Origin: Opitutus sp. GAS368
GTDB lineage: Bacteria; Verrucomicrobiota; Verrucomicrobiia; Opitutales; Opitutaceae
DNA: 41,034 bases
Assembly (NCBI GenBank): GCA_945871085.1
Contig: CAMBVX010000015.1
Span: forward strand, 1 to 41,034
Direction of reading: 5' to 3'
The notes below the pieces were generated by a model. The model ran no database searches. It was not told the origin of the DNA and saw only the letters and a list, made by a program, of their open reading frames with translations. The translations under genes and the position numbers were made by a program. Numbering within the stretch: position 1 is the stretch's first letter; each line of letters opens with the position of its first letter. Below, piece after piece: positions 11,643 through 36,038 of the stretch.

Positions 11643-14021
11643 ATGCCCACTCTTCCTGGCCTTCAAACCTTCGGTGTCTTCCGTGTGTTCCGTGGGCTCA
11701 CCCCGGCCTCTTCCCTCCGCTCTCTTTTCATCGCGCTCGCGGGTTCCCTGGTTTTCACCTCCGTTCTCCCAGCCGATCCGCTCTCGAAGAAAACCGACAT
11801 CGATTTTTTCCGCGACGTCCCCAGCCGCAGCCTTAAACGCCTCGCCGCCCGCTCCGATGGCCGGCTCGTGGCGGGCCCCATTCTCGCTGAACTCGTCGTT
11901 CCCGCTCCCGCCGATCTCCTCTGGTGCATCGAGTCCACTGCTGACGCCACGAAGTTCCTCGTCGGCACCGGGCCCGACGGAAAAATCCTCGAGATCACCT
12001 ACAATCCCGCCCTCGCCACCTACGCCTCGCGCGAACTCGTCAAACTCGACGATCCGCAGGTCTACACCGTCAAACCCCTCGCCGACGGGGCCCTCCTCGC
12101 CGGCACGTCCCCAAAGGGCGCGCTCTACCTCGTCCGCGATGGCGCGCCCGTCGCCCGCGTCGCGCTTCCTGTCGATTCCATTTTCGACCTCCTCCTGCTC
12201 GACGCCGACACCGCGCTCGTCGCGACCGGAAATCCCGGCCATATTTACCGCGTCGACCTGAAAAAATTCTCCGCCGCTGGCGTTACCTCGGAAAAGATCA
12301 CCGACGCAGCCCTGCTCGCCGAACACGGCATCACGCTCTTCGGCGAAATCCGTGACCGCAACGTCCGCCGCCTCGCGTTGCTCTCCGACGGCCGCATCGC
12401 CGCCGGCTCCTCCCCGAAGGGAAACATCTACACCTTCACGCCCGCGTCCGCTTCAGTCTCGGCTCCGCCGTCCCTGAGCTCTCCGCTCTCCGCCCTTCCA
12501 CCCTCAACCCCCGCCATCATTCTCCAGGAAAACCGCGACGCCGAGGTCACCGATCTCCTGCCCCAACCCAACGGCGATCTCTATGCGACTATTGTGTTCA
12601 CGGGCACCAGTGGCGAATCCCGCATCACCCCGGCCGACGGCAAGAAACCCGCCGCCGACGCCAAGCCCGCCGACCCGGTCCTCGCCGCCCCGGCCGAGAA
12701 ATTCGCCGGTCGCAGCACGCTTGTCCTTTTTTCACCGAACGGTTTTCCCGAAATCCTCGCCGCCCGCGCCAATGCCGCATTCTACCGCCTGGCCCGCCAC
12801 GGCGACGTCATTTTCATGACCGGCGGAGAGCTCGGTGAACTTTACGGCTACGACATTAAATCCCGGCTCAGCCTCACTTTCGCGGGCAGCATCTCTTCCC
12901 AGCTCAACGGTGTGACGCCCATCCCGGGTGCGCCGGGAAAATTCTTCGTCATCCGCAACAACGCCCCCGGCTTTGCGCTCCTCGATTTTTCCGCCTCCGG
13001 TCCGCGCGAAGCCGAAACCCGCCGCCTCGATCTCGGTCTCCTCGCGCAACTCGGCGCGTTGCGTTTTAACCGTATCCGAAATATCGCTGACCCCCAGCTC
13101 TCCGTCGAAATCCGCACCAGCCATGGTAGCGACGAACTCGAAGGCTGGGGCCCTTGGAGCGCCCTCCAACCTTCCGAGGGTGGCTGGCGCGGCGACTCCC
13201 TGCGCGGCCGCCACTTCAAACTCCGCATCCGTCTGCTCGACACCGCACTCGGCGCTCCCGCGGCCGAAATCGACAAGGCCACGCTCTACGTGCTGCCGCA
13301 GAATCGCCGCCCCACCCTCCAAGATTTTCGCCTGATTTCACCCAACTTTGGCCTCATCCCCGCCGTGGAACAGCCTCCTGCGCCCAACGCGTCGCTGAGC
13401 CAGCTCGTCTCTGCCAGCCCGAAAGACGAGGACGCCAAACGCAAAGCCACGTTGCTGAATAGCCAGATCGTCCCGTCGCCCGGCACGCAAGTTGTCTTCT
13501 GGACCGTCACCGATCCCGACCAAGACAACGTCCTCAGCACCTTTTCCATCCGCCGCGAGGGCGATACCGCGTGGACTGATCTCGCCGCCAACACCCGCGA
13601 TAGCTTCGCTCAATTTGACGGTTCGCACCTGCCCGACGGTGTCTACTTCACTCGCCTCGTCTCGACCGAGACCGCGCCGCGCCCCGTCGGCGACCGCCTC
13701 ACCGCCACCTTCGAAACCGACGATCTTGTGATCGACCACACGAAGCCCGAAATCCTCGAGGCCAGTGCCCGCCGCGATGGTGACCGCGTCATCATTTCGG
13801 TCAGTGGCCGCGACGCGCTTTCGCTGCTCGATGGCATTGAAGTCATCTTCAACAACAGCGTCCGCGAAGTCGTCGAACAACCCGACGACGGCGTGCGCGA
13901 CAGTCGGCAAGAACGTTTCACGCTCGACGTCCCCTGGGCGAAAGTGAGTAACGCCACCTCCGCCGAAGTCACCCTCTACGACGCCGCGGGCAACGGCACC
14001 CCCCGCCGCGTCAACTGGTAG
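11643..14021 (+). CDS. Large secreted protein of unknown function, propeller-like
   Basis: A 792-residue protein whose N-terminal about 40 residues end in a signal-like helix (LRSLFIALAGSLVFTSVLPAD). Residues about 50-480 contain repeats of the type DGRLVAG, GPDGKILEI, LADGALLAGTSPKGALYLV and LSDGRIAAGSSPKGNIYTF, each suggesting a four-stranded blade of a beta-propeller. Residues about 600-790 look like two Ig-like/fibronectin-like beta domains (GTQVVFWTVTDPDQDNV; TKPEILEASARRDGDRVIISVSGRD). I do not recognise the family. The N-terminus GVFRVFRGL is encoded by a dispersed repeat, so the true start may lie downstream of the ATG. A further low-complexity insert lies at residues about 268-290. 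It is probably co-transcribed with the S55-like gene. Confidence 0.75.
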   Translation: MPTLPGLQTFGVFRVFRGLTPASSLRSLFIALAGSLVFTSVLPADPLSKKTDIDFFRDVPSRSLKRLAARSDGRLVAGPILAELVVPAPADLLWCIESTADATKFLVGTGPDGKILEITYNPALATYASRELVKLDDPQVYTVKPLADGALLAGTSPKGALYLVRDGAPVARVALPVDSIFDLLLLDADTALVATGNPGHIYRVDLKKFSAAGVTSEKITDAALLAEHGITLFGEIRDRNVRRLALLSDGRIAAGSSPKGNIYTFTPASASVSAPPSLSSPLSALPPSTPAIILQENRDAEVTDLLPQPNGDLYATIVFTGTSGESRITPADGKKPAADAKPADPVLAAPAEKFAGRSTLVLFSPNGFPEILAARANAAFYRLARHGDVIFMTGGELGELYGYDIKSRLSLTFAGSISSQLNGVTPIPGAPGKFFVIRNNAPGFALLDFSASGPREAETRRLDLGLLAQLGALRFNRIRNIADPQLSVEIRTSHGSDELEGWGPWSALQPSEGGWRGDSLRGRHFKLRIRLLDTALGAPAAEIDKATLYVLPQNRRPTLQDFRLISPNFGLIPAVEQPPAPNASLSQLVSASPKDEDAKRKATLLNSQIVPSPGTQVVFWTVTDPDQDNVLSTFSIRREGDTAWTDLAANTRDSFAQFDGSHLPDGVYFTRLVSTETAPRPVGDRLTATFETDDLVIDHTKPEILEASARRDGDRVIISVSGRDALSLLDGIEVIFNNSVREVVEQPDDGVRDSRQERFTLDVPWAKVSNATSAEVTLYDAAGNGTPRRVNW
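11679..11695 (+). repeat. Short repeat copy at the 5' end of a secreted-protein gene
   Basis: TTCCGTGTGTTCCGTGG matches 16 of 17 bases with 16416-16432 in the mazG/trpC intergenic palindrome (TTCCGTGTGTTGCGTGG). Here it lies within the predicted first 20 codons and is read as FRVFRG. The copy is probably part of a dispersed repeat rather than ancestral coding sequence. Confidence 0.5.
12441..12515 (+). repeat. Ser/Pro low-complexity insert in the propeller-like gene
   Basis: A pyrimidine-rich run encoding SASVSAPPSLSSPLSALPPS interrupts the propeller-like repeats between one strand ending NIYTF and the next beginning AIILQENRDAEVTDL. It shares the exact 13-mer CTCTCCGCTCTCC with the insert at 10213-10225 in the upstream gene. 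The reading frame is kept. Confidence 0.4.
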
Positions 14022-14713: not shown

Positions 14714-15703
14714 CTACGCCCGCGGATGCGCCTTCGCGTAAATCTCCTTGAGCCTGGCGACGCTCACGTGCGTGTAAATTTGGGTCGTCGCCAGTTGCGC
14801 GTGTCCGAGCAGTTCCTGCACGAGGCGCAGATCCGCCCCGGCGTTGAGCAGGTGCGTCGCATACGAGTGCCGAAGCTTGTGCGGCGTCAGATCCAGCGGC
14901 AGCCCCGCGAGCGTGAGATAGCGCTTCAGCATGAGCTGCACCTCTCGCACTCCCATTCGCCGCCCGTTTGTATTCACCAACACCGGACTCGTCGGCTCTT
15001 TCGCCCGGGCAAACTCATCGCGAAATTTCACGAGCACCGCGAGCGCCACCCGCCCTAGCGGACATAAACGTTCCTTTTGCCCCTTGCCCAGCACGCGGGC
15101 CACGCCGGTCGAAAAATCGACGTCCCCATACGTCATCCCCACCGCTTCGCTCACACGCAACCCGCCCCCATACAGCAGCTCCATCGCGAGCCGGTCCCGC
15201 CACGCCGTGTGCGCAGCGATGCCCTCATTCTCCAGCAACCGCTGCGGCCCGGTGAGCAACAGCTTCATCTGCTCCTCGGTCAGAAACTTCGGCAATCGTT
15301 TCTCCAACTTCGGCAACGGCACACCGAGCAGCGGATTATTCCTCAACTTTTCCCGCTGCATCCAGAACCTGAAAAACGCGCGCAAGCCCGACGCGTGGTT
15401 GTGCAACGTCCGCCGGTCAAACCGCCGCTGCCCCTCAATCACAAAGTCCCTCATCTCGCGCGAACCGAGCGTGCTCAAACCGTTCTCCCACAGGCCGGCC
15501 CCTACGAGCCACCGGTAGAAATCTTCAAACGCCTGCCGGTAATTGCGCACGGTGTAGGCCGAATAGCGCCGCTCCTTCGCGAGAAAATCTTCAAACGGCG
15601 TCCACCACTCCGCGACCACCGCCGGCGGCACCACGGCGGGCCGGTGCTCGTCGCCGGGCCGCTCCGCCTTAGGCTCCTCCCCGTTGGATGCTTTTTTCGA
15701 CAT
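14714..15703 (-). CDS. xerC: XerC/XerD-type tyrosine recombinase
   Basis: A 329-residue recombinase. Xer proteins resolve chromosome dimers at dif and some serve integrated elements. An N-terminal SAM-like domain (about 30-130, WTPFEDFLAKERRYSAYTVRNY) precedes the catalytic domain, which has Arg183 in GGGLRVSEA, the LGKGQKER lysine hairpin, PHKLRHSYATHLL, LLGHAQLATTQIYTHV with Tyr310, and a normal C-terminal tail. The first about 28 residues are a charged extension. Its ATG overlaps the end of mazG by 35 bp on the same strand, so the two are probably coupled, and this suits a resident housekeeping Xer more than an element integrase. XerC versus XerD cannot be decided from this view. Confidence 0.88.
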   Translation of the reverse strand: MSKKASNGEEPKAERPGDEHRPAVVPPAVVAEWWTPFEDFLAKERRYSAYTVRNYRQAFEDFYRWLVGAGLWENGLSTLGSREMRDFVIEGQRRFDRRTLHNHASGLRAFFRFWMQREKLRNNPLLGVPLPKLEKRLPKFLTEEQMKLLLTGPQRLLENEGIAAHTAWRDRLAMELLYGGGLRVSEAVGMTYGDVDFSTGVARVLGKGQKERLCPLGRVALAVLVKFRDEFARAKEPTSPVLVNTNGRRMGVREVQLMLKRYLTLAGLPLDLTPHKLRHSYATHLLNAGADLRLVQELLGHAQLATTQIYTHVSVARLKEIYAKAHPRA

Positions 15704-16340
15704 CGCGCATCACCTTCGTCGCATGCAACCGCAGTGCACCTTCGGGATCGAGGCCCTTGGCCCGGGCCGCCGCTGTGAGCTCAAACAACATTTTCCCGAG
15801 CATCGTTTCATCCAACTGCTCGCCCAACGCGCGCACCTGCGCCGTGTCCACCGCGCCTTCGGCCGGCAGTTCTTTCTTCTCAATCTGCTTCCACACCGCC
15901 TCGGCAAACATCAACGCCGGCAATCGCGGCGGCAGGTCTTTGAACACGCCCGTCGACACCGGACCGTGTTTCTTCTCCGTCGCTTTGATCTCCTCCCATT
16001 TCACAATGACTTCCGCCGCCGTCTTGAGTTGACCGTCGCCAAACACATGCGGATGCCGCCGCACCAACTTCTCATTGATATCTCGCGCGACGTCCTCGAA
16101 TGAAAAATTTCCGGCCTCTTCCTCAAGGCGGGCGTGAAACACGATTTGGATCAACACGTCGCCCAATTCCTCCCGCATGTGCGCGAGGTCCCCGCGATCA
16201 ATCGTGTCGATGAGCTCGCTCACCTCGTCGATCAGACAACGCACGAGCGTCGCATGGGTCTGCTCTTGATCCCACGGACATCCGCCGGGCTTCGCCCGCA
16301 ATCGCACCATCGTCTGTTTCAGATCCTCAATCGCGCTCAT
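15669..16340 (-). CDS. mazG: Nucleoside triphosphate pyrophosphohydrolase MazG
   Basis: A 223-residue all-alpha NTP pyrophosphohydrolase that converts NTPs and dNTPs to NMPs, limiting aberrant nucleotides and affecting ppGpp levels. The N-terminal MazG domain has RAKPGGCPWDQEQTHATL and the metal-binding LIDEVSELIDTID and EELGDVLIQIVFHA (EExxE and ExxD patterns). The second half retains KLVRRHPHVFG and a KWEEIK segment. I chose the ATG at 16340 because it gives the family N-terminus; a longer frame from 16466 would add a TTQHTEHAELK-type peptide translated from a dispersed repeat and antisense to the trpC start. The downstream xerC overlaps it by 35 bp. Confidence 0.94.
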   Translation of the reverse strand: MSAIEDLKQTMVRLRAKPGGCPWDQEQTHATLVRCLIDEVSELIDTIDRGDLAHMREELGDVLIQIVFHARLEEEAGNFSFEDVARDINEKLVRRHPHVFGDGQLKTAAEVIVKWEEIKATEKKHGPVSTGVFKDLPPRLPALMFAEAVWKQIEKKELPAEGAVDTAQVRALGEQLDETMLGKMLFELTAAARAKGLDPEGALRLHATKVMRDVEKSIQRGGA

Positions 16341-16343
16341 CAA

Positions 16344-16433
16344 ACCACGGTGCCTGCGGAACTCACGAAATACACGGAAAATTTCGCCAAAAAATTCGGC
16401 TTTGAGTTCCGCGTGTTCCGTGTGTTGCGTGGT
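16344..16433. repeat. Palindromic repeat filling the mazG/trpC divergent region
   Basis: A 90-bp imperfect palindrome. Outer arms are ACCACG (16344-16349) and CGTGGT (16428-16433). Inner arms are a perfect 10-mer, GCGGAACTCA (16356-16365) and TGAGTTCCGC (16403-16412). The middle is AT-rich. Its right half shares 16 of 17 bases with 11679-11695. The element begins 4 bp from the mazG ATG and ends 8 bp before the trpC ATG, so it makes up nearly all of the intergenic sequence. Translated, it gives TTQHTEH on one strand and FRVFRVLRG on the other, a style I recall from dispersed repeats of Verrucomicrobia and planctomycetes. Confidence 0.7.
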
Positions 16434-16440
16434 CGCTCTC

Positions 16441-17241
16441 ATGTCCGACAAACTCACCGAGATCATGGCGTGGAAGCGTCACGAGATTGCGCCTTTCATT
16501 CGCGCCGTCTCCGCCGCCGAGCTGTCCCGCCTGGACGCCACGTTGCCTCGTCCGCCGTCCTTCGCCGCCGCCCTCCAGCGCGCCGACGGCAAACTCGCCG
16601 TCATCTCCGAGATTAAGCGGCGCTCCCCTTCCGCCGGTGACATCAAGGCCGGTGCCTCCGCCGTCGCCCAGGCCGTCCGTTATCAATCCGCCGGTGCCGA
16701 CGCGCTCTCGGTTCTGACCGACGAAAAATTCTTCGGCGGCACCCTCGACGATCTCCACGACGTCACCGCGCATTTTCGGACCACGCCGCCCGCCCGTCCC
16801 TGCATCCGCAAGGACTTCTTCGTCCACCCCATCCAGGTGCTCCAAGCCCGCGCCGCCGGCGCCAGCGCGATCCTCATTATCGTTCGCGCCCTCACCGACG
16901 AGGAAATGAAAACCTTGGCCGCCGCCGCCAACGCCGCCGGCCTCGACGCTCTCTTTGAGATTCACGCTGAGCCCGAGATCGCCCGGGCGCTCGCCCACGG
17001 GGCCCGGATTATCGGCGTCAACAATCGCGACCTCTCCACGTTCACGACCGATCTCGGCCTCAGCGAGCGCCTCATCCCGCTTTTCCCCTCCTACGTCACG
17101 GCCGTCAGCGAAAGCGGCATTCACACCGCTGCCGACGCGGCCCGCGTCCGCGCCACCGGCGCCCACGCCGTCCTCGTCGGCGAGGCCCTCATGAAAGCCG
17201 CCGATCCCGCCGCCCTCCTCTCCGCGTTTCGCTCCACCTAA
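16441..17241 (+). CDS. trpC: Indole-3-glycerol phosphate synthase
   Basis: A 266-residue TIM-barrel enzyme of tryptophan biosynthesis that closes carboxyphenylaminodeoxyribulose phosphate to indole-3-glycerol phosphate with loss of CO2 and water. Catalytic segments are in order: SEIKRRSPSAGDI (general Lys), CIRKDFFVHPIQV (second Lys), GVNNRDLSTF, and VSESGIHTAADAARV with the phosphate-binding loop that follows (GAHAVLVGEALMKA). I chose the ATG at 16441 (MSDKLTEIMAWKRHEI, the family start) over an upstream start at 16402 that would read through the repeat. Other trp genes are not present in the window, so the pathway is dispersed. A DUF5069 gene follows after 7 bp and rsmA after that. Confidence 0.95.
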   Translation: MSDKLTEIMAWKRHEIAPFIRAVSAAELSRLDATLPRPPSFAAALQRADGKLAVISEIKRRSPSAGDIKAGASAVAQAVRYQSAGADALSVLTDEKFFGGTLDDLHDVTAHFRTTPPARPCIRKDFFVHPIQVLQARAAGASAILIIVRALTDEEMKTLAAAANAAGLDALFEIHAEPEIARALAHGARIIGVNNRDLSTFTTDLGLSERLIPLFPSYVTAVSESGIHTAADAARVRATGAHAVLVGEALMKAADPAALLSAFRST

Positions 17242-35947: not shown

Positions 35948-36038
35948 GGAGGAGTGGCTGAGTTGGTTTAAGGCACCTGACTTGAAATCAGACGTGGGGG
36001 CAACCTCACCGGGGGTTCGAATCCCTCCTCCTCCGCCA
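35948..36038 (+). tRNA. tRNA-Ser (anticodon TGA)
   Basis: A class II tRNA with encoded CCA. The acceptor stem pairs GGAGGAG (35948-35954) with CTCCTCC (36028-36034), discriminator G, then CCA (36036-36038). The anticodon loop CTTGAAA gives anticodon TGA at 35983-35985, reading UCA serine codons. A long variable arm (about 35991-36010) and a TTCGAAT T-loop (36016-36022) complete it. The anticodon stem has one imperfect outer pair. It stands alone between the ceramidase-like gene and the recombinase region, a typical edge for integrated DNA, although I see no duplicated tRNA 3' end in the window. Confidence 0.96.

Follow-up and report, generated by a model that had tools for sequence, protein, structure and literature searches.

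In the parts of the cited papers used here, repetitive extragenic palindromic (REP) sequences are tagged GTAG and CGTC, and Opitutus terrae is described as rich in GTAG repeats (PMC3733652). The class 2 sites of Geobacter metallireducens, reported in 2009, form 21 pairs, the two sites of a pair lying on opposite strands at a variable distance and each consisting of three tandem copies of TCTCCGTS[Y] (PMC2700814), and in G. bemidjiensis palindromes and direct repeats are found in 12% of spacers (PMC2996986). Direct repeats of TAACTGA lie near start codons in Beggiatoaceae and occur also in other phyla (PMC4679880). The name GxxExxY appears in print (PMC8934634); in the literature searched, which was one open library only, no link between its gene and repeats was found. 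Here we examine a palindrome in the spacer between the divergent genes mazG and trpC of Opitutus sp. GAS368, together with the repeat family to which it belongs. The window is the whole stretch of 41,034 nucleotides analysed, contig C15 of a source genome of 7.37 Mb in 630 contigs. We consider the mazG/trpC palindrome to be probably a worn, gene-less copy of an element on whose tandem units (iterons) the nuclease GxxExxY acts, spreading and homogenising the palindromes in a manner like that of REP-associated tyrosine transposases (RAYTs) and REP doublets forming hairpins (REPINs). Judged from sequence, the family consists of palindromes with tandem units of approximately 9 bp that have a GTG or GCG core and are inverted around a loop; its copies are dispersed and mostly intergenic, with a loop that is short in some and contains one GxxExxY gene in others, and the unit co-varies with the encoded protein.

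The mazG/trpC palindrome and its dispersed family

The spacer between the starts of mazG and trpC (16341–16440, 100 bases) is an imperfect palindrome in which a loop separates two inverted arms built of 9-bp units (TTCCGTGTN) in tandem. The left arm (16344–16379, minus strand) contains four degenerate units directed toward mazG, TTCCGTGTA TTTCGTGAG TTCCGCAGG CACCGTGGT, and the right arm (16407–16433, plus strand) contains three units directed toward trpC, TTCCGCGTG TTCCGTGTG TTGCGTGGT. The right part of the intervening loop (16380–16406), TTCGGCTTTG, was seen again in the mazG/trpC spacer of several other genera. An earlier note on this DNA, made from the letters alone, had claimed 10-bp inner and 6-bp outer arms, and both were located: GCGGAACTCA at 16356–16365 pairs with TGAGTTCCGC at 16403–16412, and ACCACG at 16344–16349 pairs with CGTGGT at 16428–16433. 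The palindrome is real by the measure that its best score, 22, exceeded those of all 300 dinucleotide shuffles (maximum of 20). The outer and inner arms have unequal centres (16388.5 and 16384, respectively) because the tandem units pair in several registers; two further inverted pairs were also found in the spacer, and 24 of 45 positions pair when all 45 + 45 bases are held to one register. The RNA fold of the spacer gave z values of −4.1 for the plus strand and −3.3 for the minus strand, with none of 200 shuffles being as stable for either strand. The spacer showed no match above the gathering score in Rfam, the only match in the window being a tRNA at 35948–36035. The suggestion in the earlier note that such a family supplies promoters or terminators was not borne out by a consensus scan of 16250–16520, which was limited to sigma-70-type promoters and yielded neither such a promoter nor an intrinsic terminator. 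Given this limit, and because many arms stop only a short way before a start codon, a regulatory role is still conceivable. The left neighbour, mazG (15669–16340, minus strand, start at 16340), takes its name from the earlier note and from a match in relatives rather than from a family search, and the right neighbour, trpC (16441–17241, plus strand, start at 16441), also named after that note, was located in 49 of the 57 genomes searched, the source genome included.

The dispersed, mobile-looking family suspected in the earlier note, with further structured copies in the genome, does exist. A two-unit pattern, TTCCGTGTNTTCCGTG, allowed one mismatch at most, gave 64 matches genome-wide compared with none for the reversed pattern, with a three-unit arm counting as two matches. 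Both full palindromes and single arms occur; the better-kept copies have the form GCCCACGGAACACACGGAATACACGGAA – loop – TTCCGTGTATTCCGTGTGTTCCGTGGGC, and a copy on contig C115 folds as a stem of at least 28 pairs. The recurrence of the right half at 11679–11695 (16 of 17 bases) was likewise confirmed, and this site is a half element of the same family (11670–11697, plus strand) with three units ending in GTGGGC, inside a predicted frame (11643–14021) near its start. Iteron arms were seen to be translated at the starts of frames, as VFRVFRG near 11670 (11643–11697) and in a long mazG frame that crosses the palindrome (15669–16466), and automatic start calls at such places are therefore doubtful. 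Outside predicted genes lay 34 of 37 examined arms, of which 22 were directed toward a gene start (many of them 7–40 nt upstream), and 10 toward a stop, with 2 left unassigned; these counts are rough, given that they were obtained with a home-made gene caller with mazG added by hand and three matches on contig C13 left out, and the start and stop counts need care because a full palindrome between tandem genes necessarily yields one of each.

Searched against a collection of species genomes, an exact pattern of the full palindrome (unit TTCCGTG or TTTCGTG) matched at least 120 stretches with at least 121 elements. The 80 titles listed include Verrucomicrobia, Proteobacteria, Acidobacteria, Planctomycetes, Chloroflexi, Nitrospirae and other phyla, and one archaeal title among them may be contamination. 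Bases left free by the pattern were complementary between the arms in 117 of 121 elements for the outer unit base (shuffle maximum of 79), in 113 for the inner unit base (81) and in 81 for the spacer base (50), with the shuffles treating several copies from one genome as separate; complementarity ends two bases past GTGG. Palindrome centres were within an open frame of at least 120 codons in 59 of 121 cases, compared with 90% of random positions. One palindrome (L362, 1074–1131) looks nested: around it stands a second palindrome, longer and almost perfect, with flanks of ccggactacagaaataagggg and the complementary sequence. Several palindromes in one Methylococcaceae bin (L287, L294, L320, L357, L359) have a common loop and common flanks, and the repeated unit there therefore seems to be longer than the arms. 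The exact full palindrome was present in only one IMG/VR contig, twice (L558, L559), and this contig may be a misassigned bacterial one.

GxxExxY genes between iteron arms

On contig C214 of the source genome, two TTCCGTG (type A) arms enclose a gene for 125 residues that belongs to GxxExxY (TIGR04256, E = 4.9e-40; PF13366, E = 7.3e-40), and these arms use the same unit as the mazG/trpC palindrome of that genome. A search with PF13366 gave 42 matches across 8 genomes of the order and 114 across 40 palindrome-bearing genomes, 33 of which had a match; one genome was common to both sets (47 distinct), and locus L473 was dropped because its genome, G228, is G160 again. The flanks were examined for 119 of 152 distinct matches (39 of 42 and 80 of 110), the remainder being mostly fragments or interrupted frames. 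An inverted repeat across the flanks scored above the maximum of 100 shuffles at 106 of these 119 loci and reached 36 or more at 85 of them. In the same test, ordinary control genes exceeded their shuffles in 4 of 268 cases and in no case reached 36, and flanks mispaired between different genomes did so in 19 of 576. The median span from arm to arm was 480 bases, and, among 100 arms, 89 had a period of 8–10 and 78 had two GYG cores. The 80 loci that could be typed comprised 27 unit types, most of which are therefore not types that were used to choose the genomes. The flanks of L555, L541 and L418 were strongly inverted without being plain GYG iterons. With one protein as query, none of 50,697 phage records and 8 of 72,556 plasmid records matched, all 8 of which were taken as a plasmid set; viral contigs gave no GxxExxY with a single-protein query, and one truncated gene with a closer alignment. 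In a Sphingomonas plasmid record (L567), GxxExxY and its iteron arms are flanked by fabD and fabG; the three genes share a strand, an arrangement that looks like an insertion into an operon.

In 17 aligned GxxExxY sequences, D70, K82, Q94 and Y98 were invariant and E80 nearly so, which suggests that the protein is an active PD-(D/E)XK nuclease; QxxxY is a RecB/Cas4-like mark. A profile search of PDB returned T7 endonuclease I (E = 0.13, 0.22 and 1.5) and an unrelated chain (E = 0.4), none of them significant, so that the match at 0.13 is a lead only, and PADLOC gave a single weak match (E = 0.0087). The association of the gene with the repeats suggests that the nuclease works on them, the action itself being inferred.

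Unit and protein were compared at the 80 typed loci, the other 39 lacking either a significant repeat or a unit that clearly recurs. Similar GxxExxY proteins from different genomes were found with similar units (r = −0.44; permutation standard deviation of 0.026; 0 of 2000 permutations), and the nearest protein in another genome was accompanied by a mean of 1.03 unit mismatches, compared with 2.32 for all pairs. We also compared TTYCGTG-flanked GxxExxY loci with a sampled gene-less palindrome of the same genome: agreement was found in 14 of 15 genomes for the letters after the last GTG (permutation mean of 5.6, 0 of 5000) and in 13 for the variable base of the unit (permutation mean of 8.2, 52 of 5000). 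Given that a gene and arms inherited as one piece would show such a link through relatedness alone, the co-variation shows one evolving unit and not, by itself, recognition. Thirteen loci of 12 genomes have homologous flanks, with 66 of 77 links on both sides, and their main arm unit is TTTCGTG in 6, TTCCGTG in 3, ATTCGCG in 3 and CGTCGCG in 1; a second such group, of five loci, has ATTAGTG, ATCAGTG or TTTAGCG. Some GxxExxY loci are thus shared by different genera that differ in the unit of both arms alike, and the simplest reading is that the gene stays put and the units of both arms are replaced together.

Arms might alternatively arise and stay matched by mutation, through slippage and templated correction of hairpins, with no dedicated enzyme. 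The likeness of units within and between arms, the stems of at least 28 pairs that well-kept copies can make, and the several genomes without a cognate GxxExxY all favour such an origin, which nevertheless leaves unexplained why GxxExxY stands between the arms, why protein and unit co-vary, and why the same units and ends are found in many phyla; we regard it as quite improbable.

The arrangement has a counterpart at genes for the four-helix protein 23S_rRNA_IVP (PF05635; L436–L465, 8 genomes), which also lie between inverted iterated arms, with 26 of 30 loci above shuffles and 16 of 30 at a score of at least 36. These arms have units of 6–8 bp without a GYG core: of 25 arms, 18 had a period of 7 and none had two GYG cores. 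Each of the two genes thus goes with its own kind of iteron, and the 23S_rRNA_IVP loci look like a sister system.

Palindromes at shared sites and their origin

The state of the spacer was read at 30 of the trpC loci, with unit types assigned by reading. A TTCCGTG element was present at 13, in 8 genomes of the genus of the window (the source genome included) and 5 of other genera, and some of these 13 spacers have just one well-kept arm. Of the remaining loci, 4 have TTTCGTG arms, 3 have TTGCG arms or a single such arm, 1 (G028) has a remnant, 5 lack any array of at least two units, and 4 have mazG elsewhere than adjacent. The element thus recurs at mazG/trpC across genera with differing units, the site being kept while the unit differs. 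On the question raised in the earlier note of the same sequence at orthologous loci, an element does stand at the same place in other genera, but its unit types are not the same. Apart from this spacer, arrays of TTCCGTG or TTTCGTG turned up at just four places in the 21 regions surrounding trpC that were searched, which were 10.6 to 41 kb long. For pairs of TTCCGTG-type loci, the similarity of the aligned spacers exceeded that at third codon positions within trpC in 27 of 28 and equalled it in one (for G023 and G035, 0.90 compared with 0.49), which speaks for constraint or homogenisation, in a comparison made without a matched baseline and with a gapped alignment that favours the spacer. Unit-type changes were also counted on a TrpC tree, a count that we set aside: 15 of its 26 inner branches were unsupported, and repeated invasion and concerted change are therefore indistinguishable there.

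Retention of the site across genera and the likeness of its spacers in 27 of 28 pairs are also what would be expected if the palindromes were operators or 5' leader elements for a host factor, with GxxExxY merely caught between them. The orientation of 22 of 34 intergenic arms toward a gene start, many at 7–40 nt, fits such a role, and similar repeats have been taken as regulator sites by earlier authors, in the parts of their papers used here (PMC2700814, PMC4679880). The unit type at one site nevertheless varies between genera, the scan of the spacer gave no promoter and no terminator, and copies that are decayed or reduced to a single arm are common, as are inverted pairs that face a stop codon. 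One gene family, moreover, occupies the space between the arms at 106 of 119 loci, and the unit tracks the sequence of its protein. A purely regulatory role for the palindromes therefore appears rather unlikely to us.

The spacer between gatA and gatB was read by eye at 25 loci (L196–L220). In G002 and G005 the genes overlap and leave no spacer; at 8 loci (G004, G006, G007, G009, G010, G014, G018, G021) the junction holds a GxxExxY gene and, after it, CTCTGTG-like units; and a short palindrome is present in G000, G001 and G008 (TTCCGTG type), in G011 and G023 (an ATTCGCG type) and in G012 (another unit again). The three states (empty, gene-less palindrome and GxxExxY gene) all occur within one genus. 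We did not retain the overlap in G002 and G005 as an empty site that is filled in congeners, given that deletion is equally possible. Several copies in G013 are flanked by outer ATCCGTG-like arms.

The layout of inverted ends, variable loop and single halves, together with four RAYT-like genes in the source genome, raises the further possibility that the palindromes are REPINs mobilised by the Y1 (RAYT) transposases of the genome. We scored 27 of 30 Y1 loci of other genomes, two not having been entered and one being too short. The 9 of 27 that reached 36 bear ordinary REP-like hairpins, several of them ending in GTAG, and not iterons, and the four Y1 genes of the source genome have other repeats, as judged by eye. 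G025 has 12 TTTCGTG matches but no Y1 match, and three Y1 loci (L263, L268, L279) have an iteron array within approximately 1.5 kb, with none found to bracket the gene. A RAYT/REPIN origin, which we consider highly improbable, was rejected on the flanks of the Y1 genes, the RAYT gene not being bracketed by an iteron palindrome, and membership among REPINs was rejected because the arm sequences inspected have no GTAG or CGTC tag at their ends.

If GxxExxY acts on the repeats, as we favour, the nuclease would recognise its own iterons, perhaps as an extruded or single-stranded hairpin, and cut there. Repair or copying after cutting would seed gene-less palindromes in new spacers and homogenise old ones, which resembles the action of RAYT on REPINs as it is thought to proceed, with another enzyme and other DNA. 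The mazG/trpC copy would be an old insertion retained in its bacterial family and, given that it fills the space between divergent starts, may have joined the promoter region of both genes. The link to GxxExxY lies outside the interpretation offered in the earlier note.

Several observations weigh against action by GxxExxY. G013 has 82 two-unit TTTCGTG matches, with such arms at none of 6 examined GxxExxY loci (of 9 matches); G011 has 16, with cognate arms at none of its 4 GxxExxY loci, all examined; and G023 (32 TTCCGTG matches) and G160 (13) have no cognate GxxExxY at the 3 of 3 and 4 of 4 loci examined. PF13366 had no match in 7 of the 40 palindrome-bearing genomes, and TTYCGTG-armed GxxExxY was present in only 15 of the 40, among the loci examined. 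In the plasmid set, which was not chosen by palindrome, 3 of 8 GxxExxY loci passed the flank test. The genomes of the main test were all chosen for holding a palindrome, and several typed loci are orthologous and hence not independent. The 119 flank pairs showed no target duplication of more than five bases and no excess at five or more; there was an excess of 2-base duplications (28, compared with a shuffle maximum of 14), which mirrored end letters may cause. A single-sequence structure model of GxxExxY had a predicted local distance difference test score of 47.6 and was not used for a fold search.

A broader version of the same proposal is conceivable, although we would not count on it. GxxExxY might form an iteron-specific class of PD-(D/E)XK enzymes, mainly chromosomal, partly vertical and present in many phyla, that cuts palindromes (perhaps as cruciforms) and promotes homing-like copying; the units at the gene locus and at old sites would be rewritten in concert as specificity drifts, and the 23S rRNA IVP protein would be a sister system on 7-bp units. 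The proposed link joins a widespread protein family of unknown function to a widespread intergenic repeat for which there was previously no explanation, or a guess that it is a regulator site. If it is true, each GxxExxY gains a candidate substrate that can be read from the flanks of its own gene, concerted iteron change at shared loci becomes a readout of the DNA specificity of the enzyme, and annotators are warned that such palindromes can produce false gene starts and false motifs.

Relation to described repeat systems

The class 2 sites of G. metallireducens have the same architecture and the same kind of unit as the iteron palindromes; the paper on classes 1–3 read its sites as binding sites for global regulators (IHF/HU), and the parts compared contain no nuclease gene (PMC2700814). 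TAACTGA repeats differ in having a 7-bp unit and in their arrangement, with 169 sets in direct orientation compared with a single indirect repeat in the genome described, according to the parts of the paper used here (PMC4679880); by their period they would resemble the arms around 23S_rRNA_IVP genes. Miniature inverted-repeat transposable elements, as described in the part of the source used (PMC10969869), are likewise small, with inverted ends, mostly intergenic, and present as gene-less beside gene-bearing copies. The palindromes differ from them in showing no excess of target duplications of at least five bases, in their iterated ends, in enclosing a gene that is no known transposase, and in loops that were poorly conserved among 20 copies read in G013.

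The palindromes resemble the RAYT/REPIN system in their short inverted ends and variable loop, in the intergenic occurrence of single halves and of copies without a gene, and in an enzyme gene with ends of the same kind. RAYTs are mostly vertical and chromosomal. The two systems differ in their enzymes, GxxExxY being of the PD-(D/E)XK type and RAYT an HUH Y1 protein, and in their DNA, the arms described here being tandem 9-bp iterons whereas a REP is one GTAG-tagged hairpin.
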